From Thermincola ferriacetica (lineage in GTDB: Bacteria; Bacillota; Thermincolia; Thermincolales; Thermincolaceae): a stretch of 64,000 bases of DNA. The DNA is taken from assembly GCF_001263415.1 (NCBI RefSeq), contig NZ_LGTE01000011.1:33772-97771 (forward strand), written 5' to 3'. A model generated the notes under the pieces. The model saw only the letters and a list, made by a program, of their open reading frames with translations. It had not been told where the DNA came from and made no database searches. Positions 14,398-55,783 of the stretch are shown here, one piece after another; the stretch's first letter is position 1; each line of letters opens with the position of its first letter. Both the position numbers and the translations under genes were made by a program.

Positions 14398-14425
14398 GTT
14401 CACAAAACGTTCACAAAATGTTCAC
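14398..14425 (+). promoter_or_regulatory. three phased GTTCAC repeats upstream of the ferredoxin-cytochrome operon
   Basis: GTTCAC occurs at 14398, 14409 and 14420, exactly 11 bases apart, each within AAAAYGTTCACAAA-like sequence. A possible -10 (TATCAT/CATATAT) lies about 12-18 bases downstream with no good -35. This is the pattern of an activator bound as a row on one DNA face. The regulator is unknown. Confidence 0.6.
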
Positions 14426-14487: not shown

Positions 14488-15543
14488 ATGAACAATCAAA
14501 TAATAGTATCCACAGAAAAAACCGAAAAAATAAGAATTAGGCCTGCTGTATTAACCAAGTTTGTGACAAACATAACATTCAGAGCGGTATGCCAGTTTTT
14601 TATAATAGGCGTAATGATTTATGCAGGGTGGAACTTCTATGGTTTTTATGAATATCTTCGAGGAAATGGTGAAATTCTTGCCCCATACCGCCCACCGGTT
14701 GTCGAGGCATTTTTACCCTTTGCCGCGGTTGTTGCTTCAAAGGTGATGTTTGTAACTGGAGAAATTGATTCCGTCCACCCAGCGGGACTGGTAATATTCA
14801 TAGCAATTTTATTGACAGCGTGGATATTCAGGAGGGGTTTCTGTTCATGGATTTGTCCTATTGGAACCTTGTCCGAATACCTGGGCAAGTTAGGTCAAAA
14901 AGTAATGGGTAGAAACCTAATGATGCCCAAATGGCTGGACATACTTTTGCTGGTTTTAAAGTACGTGACATTGCTGGTGATACTAAAGTTACTCCTTTTT
15001 CTACCAACCACCGAGGCGGAAATTTTTATGCAGACACCATTTTACAAAATCAGCGACATCAAAATGTTAGAATTTTATTTGAATATTGGTCTGGTAGGTA
15101 TTTTGGTTATTATCATTCTTATGTCTTTGTCCTTTTTGTTTAAAACCTTTTGGTGCAGATATTTATGTCCCTATGGTGCACTCCTTGGTATCATCGGTAT
15201 TTTTAGTCCGGTTGTTTTAAAGAAAAACAATAACAGTTGTATCAAGTGCAATAAATGTAACCAAGTTTGTCCAAATAAAGTAAATATAAAAGAAAAAAAT
15301 CAAATTGTAATTTCTACCGAATGTATAGGATGCACCTCATGCGTCTCCACCTGCCCCCAACCGGATACATTGAAGTTTACGGCGTTCGGGCAACTGCAGG
15401 TTAGCCCCTTGGTATATTCTGTTGGTGTACTAGCAGTATTTTTCGGAGTAATTGTTATTGGAATGCTTACAGGACACTGGGAATCCAGTTTGGACATATC
15501 TGATTTTAAATCACTATACCAGCAGATGTTGGGAGGGTTCTAG
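14488..15543 (+). CDS. NapH/CcoG-type membrane polyferredoxin
   Basis: 351 residues with about five hydrophobic helices, two cytoplasm-side cysteine pairs (FCSWICPIGTLSEYL near 130, WCRYLCPYGALLG near 227) and two [4Fe-4S] motifs (CIKCNKCNQVCPN and CIGCTSCVSTCPQ). The NapH family passes electrons between the quinol pool or cytosolic donors and membrane c-type cytochromes. AAAGGAGC precedes the ATG. The next gene, 4 bases on, is a triheme cytochrome, so the two probably form one electron-transfer unit. The terminal acceptor cannot be told. Confidence 0.9.
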   Translation: MNNQIIVSTEKTEKIRIRPAVLTKFVTNITFRAVCQFFIIGVMIYAGWNFYGFYEYLRGNGEILAPYRPPVVEAFLPFAAVVASKVMFVTGEIDSVHPAGLVIFIAILLTAWIFRRGFCSWICPIGTLSEYLGKLGQKVMGRNLMMPKWLDILLLVLKYVTLLVILKLLLFLPTTEAEIFMQTPFYKISDIKMLEFYLNIGLVGILVIIILMSLSFLFKTFWCRYLCPYGALLGIIGIFSPVVLKKNNNSCIKCNKCNQVCPNKVNIKEKNQIVISTECIGCTSCVSTCPQPDTLKFTAFGQLQVSPLVYSVGVLAVFFGVIVIGMLTGHWESSLDISDFKSLYQQMLGGF

Positions 15544-15547
15544 TAAA

Positions 15548-16267
15548 ATGAATAGTAAAATGAAAAGGAAGGGCATTGTTTTTTCAATAATATTGGTGAT
15601 CTTAGCCGCACTGTATTTAAGTCTTGCACAATATTTTGATGTCGTGGAAGCAACCAAAACCCTTATCGCCGGTAATACGGAAGTAAGCGTTTGCGCCTCA
15701 TGCCATAATTTAGGCATGTATCTTAAAATGCCCAGAGAAACTCTTTGCAGTAGCTGCCACGAATACCGGTGGTCCGCAACTTCTGAATATGTTCATGAAA
15801 AGCACGTCCAGGAACAGAACTTTGACTGCAAATTCTGCCATTCTGAACAGGAAAATATAAACCAGGAACCAATCAATATAGATGAAGTTACCTCCTACAT
15901 AACCAAATATTTGGACCAAAAATTCCCCGGAGATTGGCAGGTATCCGGAACTACTCTTCAAAAAGGTTCCTATATAGAAAACGGTAACTACAGAATTGCA
16001 AAAGAAGTTGCCGGTCTCTACAAGGGCAGCATGGTCTCAATTTATGTCGGCCAGACCAGGATTTCCAGTTCTGTTACCGATCCAAGCGGCAGACCGCTAT
16101 TAGCCGGTTATCCTACGCCGGATACCGTAGCCCAGGTCATGAAAAGTGGTAAAGCGGTACTGACAAATACTTCTTCAATAGGGATAATCACTTACCAGAA
16201 AATATTTATGCCGATCAAAGCAAAAGGAAAAACCGTTGCAGTTATGAGCGTTTCCATTGTCCAGTGA
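15548..16267 (+). CDS. membrane-anchored triheme cytochrome c fused to a Cache-like sensor domain
   Basis: 239 residues from the ATG at 15548, which follows GGAGGG; the frame runs further upstream inside the previous gene. One anchor helix (about 10-28), then three heme c sites: C49ASCH, C67SSCH and C94KFCH. The remaining part (about 110-239) is not cytochrome: VAGLYKGSMVSIYVGQTRIS, DPSGRPLLAGYPTPDTV, then YQKIFMPIKAKGKTVAVMSVSI. This resembles the extracytoplasmic Cache sensor domains of chemoreceptors and kinases (ligand pocket, then the 'y..PIk...G..vgv..v' strand). A redox carrier joined to a ligand-binding module is unusual. The Cache call is by eye. Confidence 0.75.
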   Translation: MNSKMKRKGIVFSIILVILAALYLSLAQYFDVVEATKTLIAGNTEVSVCASCHNLGMYLKMPRETLCSSCHEYRWSATSEYVHEKHVQEQNFDCKFCHSEQENINQEPINIDEVTSYITKYLDQKFPGDWQVSGTTLQKGSYIENGNYRIAKEVAGLYKGSMVSIYVGQTRISSSVTDPSGRPLLAGYPTPDTVAQVMKSGKAVLTNTSSIGIITYQKIFMPIKAKGKTVAVMSVSIVQ

Positions 16268-16398: not shown

Positions 16399-17052
16399 AT
16401 GCTTACCAAAGAGATTAAAATTCCTGCCGACGGTCGACCCATCGAAGCTTTTACCATGCACAAAAAAGCAAAACCCGACAGAGCCTTCCTGATTTTACCG
16501 GGCCGGGGCTACACTGTTAATCATTTTCTGCTGGACTTCCTCTGGCGCATGGCCGCCGAACAGGGCTTCTTCGCCGTCAAAGCCGAGTACAGAGGTTACA
16601 CTTACAGGCACCTGGGCCAACCTTACGACCATAACCATGCCACCAATGATGCCCGCTTTGTGCTGGATTACCTGGCCAGCCTGGGTTATGAAGCAGAAAA
16701 TACCGTATTATGCGCCAAATCTTTGGGCACTATAGCGACGTGCAACCTGGTGGTCGAACATAACAGGCGCTTTCATAAAGTTATCCTGCTTACTCCTGTG
16801 TTATATGTAAATAAAAATGACGGTGTTTTCCCGGCCTGGGTAGAGTTCAATGAAAAAGTTAGACAAGCCTATCTTGTTTTTGGCAGTAATGACCCCTATT
16901 GTGACCAGACAACAGCCAGGACGACTTTTCCCACCGCCCGGATCGATTGTTACGAGGGCGCAGACCATGGGCTGCACCTGGTCGGCAATTATGCGGAAAC
17001 AATAGAGATTAACCGGCAGATAATCGAGAAAGTCAAAGATTTTGTTAAATAG
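16399..17052 (+). CDS. alpha/beta hydrolase
   Basis: 217 residues from the ATG at 16399, eight bases after AAGGAG; a GTG start at 16264 overlapping the cytochrome stop would add an unrelated 45-residue tail. The fold is visible: ILPGRGYTVNHFL (oxyanion loop), nucleophile serine in LCAKSLGT, acid in FGSNDPYCD and histidine in EGADHGLHL. The nucleophile elbow is AKSLG rather than GxSxG. There is no signal peptide, so it is cytosolic. The substrate is unknown; it may be co-transcribed with the cytochrome genes. The next 760 bases are repeats. Confidence 0.8.
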   Translation: MLTKEIKIPADGRPIEAFTMHKKAKPDRAFLILPGRGYTVNHFLLDFLWRMAAEQGFFAVKAEYRGYTYRHLGQPYDHNHATNDARFVLDYLASLGYEAENTVLCAKSLGTIATCNLVVEHNRRFHKVILLTPVLYVNKNDGVFPAWVEFNEKVRQAYLVFGSNDPYCDQTTARTTFPTARIDCYEGADHGLHLVGNYAETIEINRQIIEKVKDFVK

Positions 17053-44039: not shown

Positions 44040-44312
44040 AAAAACTTTTCATCCGTTTAAGGACGAAAAGCTCATTTCCGCGGTACCACCTTACTTCACA
44101 AGCGTTGTAGCGCCTGGAACTCTTTGGCTGTAACGGGCTGACCCGGTAAAGCTTACATAAGGGAGGGTTAATCCTTCCTCTTCAGCCTTACAGCTCCAGG
44201 GCGACGTTCAAAAGCCTTTTTCCCGGGGGCCTTTCAGCCAAGGGCACCCCTCTCTTTGGAGAAAGTACCTTTTACTCTTCCCTGTCATTGCCTGCAATAT
44301 CCATTAACGTAT
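44040..44312 (-). ncRNA. T-box leader of valS (valine-specific)
   Basis: The T-box sequence AAGGTGGTACCGCGG appears on the minus strand (complement 44079-44093). It is followed by the terminator CTTTTCGTCC...GGATGAAAAG-TTTTTTT (complement 44044-44070), which competes with the antiterminator. Stem I shows AGAGAG, then GAAC-GUC-GCCCUGGAG. The GUC (complement 44203-44205) is the specifier and codes for valine. Uncharged tRNA-Val should allow read-through. Confidence 0.92.
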
Positions 44313-54697: not shown

Positions 54698-54772
54698 TGG
54701 AGCGGAAGACGGGATTCGAACCCGCGACCCTCGCCTTGGCAAGGCGATGCTCTACCACTGAGCCACTTCCGC
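54698..54772 (-). tRNA. tRNA-Gly(GCC)
   Basis: 75 bases including encoded CCA. Acceptor GCGGAAG/CTTCCGC, anticodon loop TTGCCAA, T-arm GGTTCGAATCC. Last gene of an eight-tRNA operon. Confidence 0.97.
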
Positions 54773-54909
54773 ATAAGTTATCGGTTATTCATAATTGAAA
54801 TTTTATCCTAAAATATCAGGCTTGTCAATTTTTACAGCGCAATTTTTCGGCATAAATGAACAAAGCTTCAGCAAGTTTCAATTGGCATTAATTTAAGGTA
54901 CCCAAATTT

Positions 54910-54992
54910 TGGTGCGGATGGAGGGACTTGAACCCCCACGGTTTCCCGCCAGATCCTAAGTCTGGTGCGTCTGCCAATTCCGCCACATCCGC
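54910..54992 (-). tRNA. tRNA-Leu(UAG)
   Basis: 83 bases with encoded CCA. Acceptor GCGGATG/CATCCGC, anticodon TAG between CCAGA and TCTGG, and a short class II variable arm (CGGGAAACCG). Confidence 0.96.
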
Positions 54993-55164
54993 ACATCTTG
55001 GCCCTAACGCATAAATGATTCTAACATAGCTTTAAGGGGATGTCAAGGATACTCCGCAATTACCTTTAAGGCTTCAAATACCTTACTTCAAAATGAGACA
55101 CGACTATCGGTTTTCTGTACCAAAAAACCTTCGGAAAATCACTTCCGAAGGTTCAATTTCTAAA

Positions 55165-55240
55165 TGGTGAGCCATGCTGGACTCGAACCAGCGACACCCT
55201 GATTAAAAGTCAGGTGCTCTACCAACTGAGCTAATGGCTC
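55165..55240 (-). tRNA. tRNA-Lys(UUU)
   Basis: 76 bases with encoded CCA. Acceptor GAGCCAT/ATGGCTC, anticodon loop CTTTTAA. Confidence 0.97.
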
Positions 55241-55245
55241 ATAAA

Positions 55246-55321
55246 TGGCTGGGGCGGCTGGACTCGAACCAACGCATGCGGGAGTCAAAGTCCCGTGCCT
55301 TACCAACTTGGCTACGCCCCA
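55246..55321 (-). tRNA. tRNA-Gln(UUG)
   Basis: 76 bases with encoded CCA. Acceptor TGGGGCG/CGCCCCA, anticodon loop CTTTGAC. Only five bases from tRNA-Lys. Confidence 0.97.
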
Positions 55322-55412
55322 ACAACGAAACAATTGACAATTAAAATACCCTCAAACAAACCTCTATTAAACAATTGTCAATTGTACATTGTCAATTGTC
55401 AATTAACAACTT
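55322..55412. repeat. CAATTGTC-type AT-rich palindromic repeat inside the tRNA operon
   Basis: AACAATTGACAATT near the left and CAATTGTCAATTGTACATTG plus another GTCAATTGTCAATT near the right. The motif CAATTG(T)C occurs several times in both senses and can pair across the spacer between tRNA-Gln and tRNA-His. Confidence 0.55.
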
Positions 55413-55490
55413 TGGGGTGGCTGATGGGATTCGAACCCACGAATGCAGGAGCCACAATCCTGTGTCTTGAACCGCTTGACTACAGCCACC
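55413..55490 (-). tRNA. tRNA-His(GUG)
   Basis: 78 bases with encoded CCA. Acceptor GGTGGCT/AGCCACC, anticodon loop TTGTGGC. Confidence 0.96.
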
Positions 55491-55505
55491 ATAAATTAAC
55501 CCCAA

Positions 55506-55581
55506 TGGCGCGCCTAGGAGGATTCGAACCTCCGGCACACGGATTAGAAGTCCGTTGCTCTATCCACTGAGCTATAGGCGC
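55506..55581 (-). tRNA. tRNA-Arg(UCU)
   Basis: 76 bases with encoded CCA. Acceptor GCGCCTA/TAGGCGC, anticodon loop CTTCTAA. Confidence 0.97.
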
Positions 55582-55612
55582 ATGTAACAGAAGATAGGTT
55601 TTTGAAAATTAA

Positions 55613-55686
55613 TGGAGCGGGTGATGGGAATCGAACCCACGCGACTAGCTTGGAAGGCTAGGGCTCTACCATTGAGCTACACCCGC
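55613..55686 (-). tRNA. tRNA-Gly(UCC)
   Basis: 74 bases with encoded CCA. Acceptor GCGGGTG/CACCCGC, anticodon loop CTTCCAA. Confidence 0.97.
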
Positions 55687-55706
55687 ATAATCTAATTGTA
55701 TTTAGC

Positions 55707-55783
55707 TGGTCGGGATGGAGGGATTTGAACCCCCGACCCCTTGCTCCCAAGGCAAGTGCGCTACCAAGCTGCGCTACATCCCG
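55707..55783 (-). tRNA. tRNA-Pro(UGG)
   Basis: 77 bases with encoded CCA. Acceptor CGGGATG/CATCCCG, anticodon loop CTTGGGA. First gene of the operon. Confidence 0.97.

Follow-up and report, generated by a model that had tools for sequence, protein, structure and literature searches.

The window analysed here is a stretch of 64,000 nucleotides from Thermincola ferriacetica (contig NZ_LGTE01000011.1, positions 33,772 to 97,771). It contains a gene for a 239-residue protein in which a triheme cytochrome c part is followed by a Cache domain of the sCache_3_3 family, which is a new architecture of known parts. The gene directly follows that of a NapH-like membrane iron-sulfur protein. On the most economical reading, the pair would form a membrane electron-exit module in which the NapH-like protein hands electrons to the triheme cytochrome, while the Cache domain binds a ligand and serves as a gate or a dock; we put the probability of this reading at about 0.45. 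Cache domains have been described chiefly as the input parts of signalling proteins. If the reading is true, outside metabolites could act directly on a respiratory exit in Thermincola, a metal-respiring, Gram-positive genus in which extracellular electron transfer has been studied. The features of the fusion gene are as follows (ORF, open reading frame).

15531..15537, + strand: GGGAGGG, ribosome-binding-site-like, 10 bases before the ATG (sequence)
15548..16267, + strand: triheme cytochrome c–sCache_3_3 fusion protein, 239 residues, complete ORF (ORF list, Pfam, structure model)
15572..15628, + strand: predicted single transmembrane anchor, residues 9-27, mean hydropathy 2.65 (hydropathy; helix 3-40 of the model)
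15692..15706, + strand: heme motif 1, CASCH, residues 49-53 (sequence)
15746..15760, + strand: heme motif 2, CSSCH, residues 67-71 (sequence)
15794..15805, + strand: His83 and His86, candidate distal ligands for the hemes; all other histidines belong to CxxCH motifs
15827..15841, + strand: heme motif 3, CKFCH, residues 94-98 (sequence)
15875..16264, + strand: sCache_3_3 domain, residues 110-239, without Cys or His (Pfam, model, fold search, sequence)
16058..16060, + strand: Arg171, family-invariant, occupying the position that the formate-site arginine has in related sCache domains of chemoreceptors (motif-spacing mapping)

Predicted heme-binding part of the fusion protein

An earlier note on this DNA had placed three CxxCH sites before a C-terminal domain beginning near residue 105, and both the sites and the border were confirmed. 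Among 200,000 composition-preserving shuffles of the protein, one CxxCH arose in 515 and at least two in none, against three observed. The Pfam model Cytochrome_C7 (PF14522) matched two stretches, the best being residues 43-72, with 27.6 bits at a cut-off of 24.8, while the NCBIfam NapC model (NapC/NrfH quinol dehydrogenase) gave 13.3 bits, far below its cut-off of 349. In the structure model, the heme part (residues 41-103) has a pLDDT (predicted local distance difference test) score below 50. Covalent heme attachment is predicted, as is membrane anchoring by an uncleaved N-terminal helix; the predicted cytoplasmic tail comprises about 8 residues.

Classical cytochrome c7 carries three bis-His hemes. 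The fusion protein has five histidines in total, three of them proximal, and a distal histidine from its own chain is possible for two hemes only. Judged from the sequence, three bis-His hemes within one chain are impossible, since six histidines would be needed. The classical c7 arrangement is thus excluded within the chain, and one heme would be His/Met-ligated or open, unless a partner supplies the ligand. Met57 and Met61 stand after heme motif 1.

The heme stretch may represent a fragment of some larger multiheme cytochrome, because in a genome search it resembled the end of an 11-CxxCH protein of genome G128 (34% over residues 44-105). It also matched a long frame of genome G013 (36% over residues 41-100).

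Cache domain and putative ligand pocket

The Cache-like identity of the C-terminal part, suggested in the earlier note, was borne out by both profile and fold. The Pfam model sCache_3_3 (PF17202) matched residues 146-237 with 32.3 bits against a curated cut-off of 28.8. The structure model was confident over residues 111-239, and its best matches among solved structures were Cache sensors, the formate-binding ones first (8py0, 8py1), over residues 96-239. A search of solved structures by sequence found no relative, giving 2 chance rows with the protein and 9 with the alignment.

Formate has been reported for an sCache_3_3 chemoreceptor domain (excerpt of PMC12415202). According to the excerpt of PMC12501870, changes at R142, T145 and T158 of PacF affected formate binding, and the motif was mapped from these residues by the spacing R, R+3 and R+16. 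This spacing agrees with the 8py0 and 8py1 rows and, by eye, with two Cache proteins of the host genome (G000), in whose chemoreceptor the motif loop is shorter by one residue. The corresponding positions of the fusion protein are Arg171, Ser174 and Gly187. Across the Cache family, the fusion protein included, the arginine is present in 133 of 133 members, with serine at R+3 in 109 and glycine at R+16 in 115. The receptors have threonine at both positions in all 10 well-aligned rows; 9 of the 19 receptor rows were wrongly cut, appear as gaps or misfits and were left out of this count. Invariant in all 133 family members are Trp130, Glu144, Arg171, Gly201 and Pro222. Based on these data, a small anionic ligand is plausible for the pocket, and ligand binding at the Arg171 site is predicted. 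Formate itself was considered and is unsupported, the motif being incomplete.

The full formate motif (R, T+3, T+16) was observed in another protein of the same genome (L045:4937-6100, contig C23), a one-piece membrane regulator with sCache_3_3, HAMP and helix-turn-helix parts. A molybdopterin formate-dehydrogenase-like gene row lies downstream of its gene, and the protein is predicted to be a formate-sensing one-component transcription factor.

NapH-like partner gene

The gene preceding the fusion gene ends 4 bases before its start codon:

14488..15543, + strand: NapH-like membrane iron-sulfur protein, 351 residues, with Fer4_5, two CX3CP motifs (residues 119 and 223) and two ferredoxin-type 4Fe-4S motifs (251 and 279)

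The earlier note had spoken of a NapH-type ferredoxin in the same operon. The Fer4_5 domain, the two CX3CP motifs, the two clusters and the position support this description, but the NCBIfam NapH/MauN model (TIGR02163) reached only 90.9 bits at a cut-off of 213, for which reason the protein is named NapH-like here. The next ORF downstream of the fusion gene encodes an alpha/beta hydrolase with a likely start at 16399, preceded by AAGGAG. The guanine plus cytosine content of the NapH-like and fusion genes is 38 and 42%, compared with 46-50% for five other genes measured; this could reflect foreign origin or only the codon usage of membrane proteins.

A second NapH-like gene (54%) is located on contig C15 of the host genome (C15:73712-74761, L067/L068) beside an apparent TetR-type regulator. 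The same pair occurs in genome G006 (L066), without CxxCH ORFs.

Distribution of the fusion and its relatives

A search of 5.8 billion proteins with the whole protein returned seven matches: one protein with both domains (P0001) and six lipoprotein-like proteins matching in the Cache part only. P0001, encoded on a 1,852-base contig, is 98% identical to the fusion protein and differs by five substitutions in 239 residues (45, 47, 76, 111 and 143), none in a CxxCH motif or a histidine. A search with residues 1-112, the heme part, at E values up to 10, which admitted proteins 0.55-1.75 times the length of the whole fusion protein, again gave P0001 as the sole match. When an alignment of 20 sequences was used as query, 144 proteins matched, and among the 120 matches listed CxxCH occurred only in P0001.

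The 120 relatives besides P0001 are 167-214 residues long, and 115 of them have a simple lipobox pattern. The names given among the matches listed are cache domain-containing protein and hypothetical protein, with a lipoprotein guess (YifL, NlpE) in three rows. These stand-alone Cache relatives, mostly lipoproteins, come from Desulfosporosinus, Desulfitobacterium and the order of Thermincola. In their linker (residues 21-70 of P0002-P0121), exactly one histidine was observed in 108 of 120 proteins, within GHP in 78; the fusion protein has the heme region with HEKH instead.

Genome searches gave the same picture. Of 199 genomes, the host included, 56 had a match, and outside the host every match better than 1e-20 covered the Cache part only (from residue 99). 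At 1e-12, 18 of 398 genomes of the phylum matched: the host, 12 with lipoprotein-type proteins, and 5 in which longer frames matched more weakly. Within the host genome the fusion protein is the sole close family member, the two other matches being a chemoreceptor and a regulator. Scans of genome contigs yielded nothing with the protein and four loci with the alignment. A candidate second fusion in genomes G013 and G059 (22% match, residues 49-232) was rejected, as no CxxCH ORF of at least 80 residues was present in the stretches read.

Such a narrow distribution, in the host genome and P0001 only, would also be expected of a recent gene joining in one lineage that left the Cache part without a role. 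We regard this as very unlikely: the reading frame is intact, the family-invariant residues are kept, and P0001 preserves the same fusion with every heme motif and histidine unchanged.

Genomic neighborhood of stand-alone Cache lipoproteins

The neighborhood of the lipoprotein gene was read from ORF starts at thirteen loci of 12 genomes, and ten proteins were compared with Pfam. A gene for the hybrid cluster protein (hcp), a nitric oxide (NO)-related enzyme, lies upstream of the lipoprotein gene on the same strand in 6 of the 13 loci (L034-L039). The distance is about 1 kb or less in L034, L038 and L039, which belong to three different families (in L038 an opposite-strand ORF of 199 residues stands between), and about 1.6 kb off in L035-L037, from one genus, with a Zip-type gene between. 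Pfam confirmed hcp in L034 and Zip in L035, and the remainder were assigned by similar ORF starts. In L043 the lipoprotein gene closes a row of Fer4_5, ResB, CcsA and DsbD-type genes (ferredoxin and heme-c assembly; DsbD below its cut-off), and in L108 the opposite strand carries DsbD-type and thioredoxin-like genes at a distance of 1.4 kb. Judged by ORF starts, nothing comparable was seen in L033, L040, L041, L042 and L109.

The excess of CxxCH motifs had a median of 3.4 in the 12 carrier genomes and 1.9 in 20 non-carriers (p 0.002; 0.01 by family). These 20 were taken from the top of the list instead of being drawn at random, and not all of them are complete genomes. Probably, the lipoprotein form works beside cytochromes in trans, and in the Thermincola lineage the Cache domain has been joined to one in cis.

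The hcp neighbors bear on an alternative that we consider unlikely, in which the hemes and the Cache domain would sense redox state, a ligand or NO and signal via a membrane partner, electron transfer being only the input. The histidine count is in keeping with it, as at least one heme without a distal histidine in the chain might bind a gas. Nevertheless, Met57 or Met61 could supply that ligand, the protein has no output domain and its predicted tail in the cytoplasm is very short, and the host's hcp gene is not next to the operon. A role in nitrosative stress via hcp was likewise considered and set aside, hcp being at another place in the host genome.

Proposed mechanism

NapH passes electrons to an outside redox partner. 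By analogy, electrons would pass from the membrane or cytoplasm through the NapH-like protein to the triheme protein, the outward-facing half of the electron-exit module. The Cache domain would bind a small ligand and thereby gate or direct the electron flow, or it would dock the module; that ligand binding alters the flow, and does not serve docking alone, is a guess. The narrower proposal of a ligand-gated exit, in which the Cache domain would be a valve on a membrane cytochrome and not a signalling input, with the stand-alone lipoproteins of cytochrome-rich Firmicutes taking the same role in trans, seems improbable to us. It is made slightly less likely by a result for Atu0526, whose R115A variant, according to the excerpt of PMC8698456, still bound formate, and more tightly, with only the chemotactic response lost.

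It is also possible, although doubtful, that the Cache domain binds no ligand at all and attaches the triheme cytochrome to a cell-wall cytochrome, the NapH-like protein or a dimer mate, as an adaptor taken from the lipoprotein family. The altered formate-motif positions other than Arg171, the occurrence of the cytochrome fusion in one lineage and the absence of signalling output from the short, mostly lipobox-bearing relatives all fit such an adaptor. The five residues kept in all 133 members argue against it, as does the place of Arg171 at the ligand-site arginine of the related formate sensors, but the R115A result, as excerpted, weakens this last point.

Several observations weigh against the electron-exit module as a whole. 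The threonines of the formate motif are missing from the fusion protein, and the pocket could be empty; by analogy with Atu0526 R115A, which still bound formate, a conserved arginine need not imply ligand binding. As far as the searched sequences extend, a single lineage of species rank carries the fusion. The ferredoxin and heme-assembly row of L043 is absent in the other 12 of 13 lipoprotein loci, six of which lie near hcp instead, as judged by ORF starts. The non-carriers G005 and G013 are as rich in CxxCH as the carriers, which makes the co-occurrence loose. Finally, around the gene for the closest relative of the NapH-like protein (58%, in G006), the 14 kb that were read contain no ORF with CxxCH, and the pair is unconserved there.

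Beyond the single protein, the nature of the fusion partner suggests a testable role for the whole family of Cache lipoproteins matched by the alignment search, namely in electron transfer linked to cytochromes.

Comparison with known systems

The nearest described case is sCache_heme (DUF3365/Tll0287, PF11845), which in Flavobacteria is joined to a domain resembling cytochrome c and in which, according to the excerpt of PMC12889525, the heme is inside the Cache domain, with CXXCH inserted between beta3 and beta4. Both proteins combine a Cache domain with covalent heme c, which in the fusion protein is only predicted. The sCache_heme proteins are often stand-alone, and for the stand-alone or cytochrome-associated group a redox rather than a sensory role is proposed in the same excerpt. 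Unlike them, the Thermincola protein has no cysteine in residues 98-239, carries its three heme motifs before the Cache domain, belongs to sCache_3_3 and neighbors a NapH-like gene.

The formate-binding sCache chemoreceptors (8py0, 8py1; Atu0526, PacF) include the closest solved folds (8py0, 8py1) and share the equivalent arginine; the fusion protein differs in having no signalling output and in Ser174 and Gly187 replacing the two motif threonines. The NapH/MauN and NosR-type Fer4_5 ferredoxins resemble the partner protein in Fer4_5, two CX3CP motifs and two 4Fe-4S clusters, with a redox partner predicted outside. Their usual outside partners are NapG/NapC/NapB or a flavin mononucleotide (FMN) domain; the partner protein, apart from its score below the NapH/MauN cut-off, is paired with a triheme-Cache protein instead.

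Within the genus, ImdcA is a membrane decaheme cytochrome for which electron uptake from the quinone pool has been proposed (excerpt of PMC7911101). Like the fusion protein, whose anchor is predicted, it is a membrane-anchored multiheme cytochrome, but it has ten hemes, and no NapH-like match was found on the ImdcA contig of the host genome. The earlier note knew of no characterised protein with the triheme–Cache architecture. Our searches of the open-access literature agree, having found no description of it; most subscription papers were outside their scope.

Candidate regulation

A possible operator precedes the NapH-like gene, its repeats ending 62 bases before it:

14398..14425, + strand: three direct repeats GTTCAC with 11-bp spacing, a candidate operator at which an OmpR-type regulator would bind (0.01 matches expected in the window, 1 observed)

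The sole other exact two-repeat site in the genome (contig C1:180765-180781) lies between a DUF2680 gene and genes for an OmpR-type regulator and a kinase. With at most one mismatch, two-repeat sites were found at six places, compared with one for the control; three of them are one-mismatch sites. In genome G005, genes for a regulator (46% identity), a kinase, a DUF2680 protein and a Fer4_5 protein are neighbors on one strand, and the exact repeat is absent at this locus. Across 11 loci, only sites with two mismatches were found beyond the known L121 site. We suggest, as a prediction made after the fact, that the OmpR-type regulator of contig C1 (C1:180854-181546) controls the operon. For the idea of a ResD box, a literature search gave no paper. 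Promoter and terminator scans were near chance (9 against 7.0 and 2 against 2.9, respectively).

Cytochromes and other elements of the host genome

The host genome (3.18 Mb, 78 contigs) contains 612 CxxCH-coding matches, compared with 182 in a reversed control. A Thermincola genome has been described with 35 cytochromes of three or more motifs (PMC4582578), and the fusion protein is not singled out in that paper. On contig C1, a row of six genes consists of ORFs with 10, 12 and 17 CxxCH, two of 214 and 321 residues, and one with 6 CxxCH; it matches the six-gene row from TherJR_1117 (10 hemes) to TherJR_1122 (6 hemes) in the excerpt of PMC7911101. The nine-CxxCH OcwA of the genome was found through PF13435, TIGR04315 matching nowhere. 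It shows three differences from the T. potens OcwA structure 6i5b in 496 aligned residues, and three residues is also the difference between the OcwA proteins of T. ferriacetica and T. potens given in the excerpted part of PMC7911101. Elsewhere in the window, both on the - strand, a T-box leader (115 bits) was found at 44056-44297 and a cluster of eight tRNA genes at 54698-55783.
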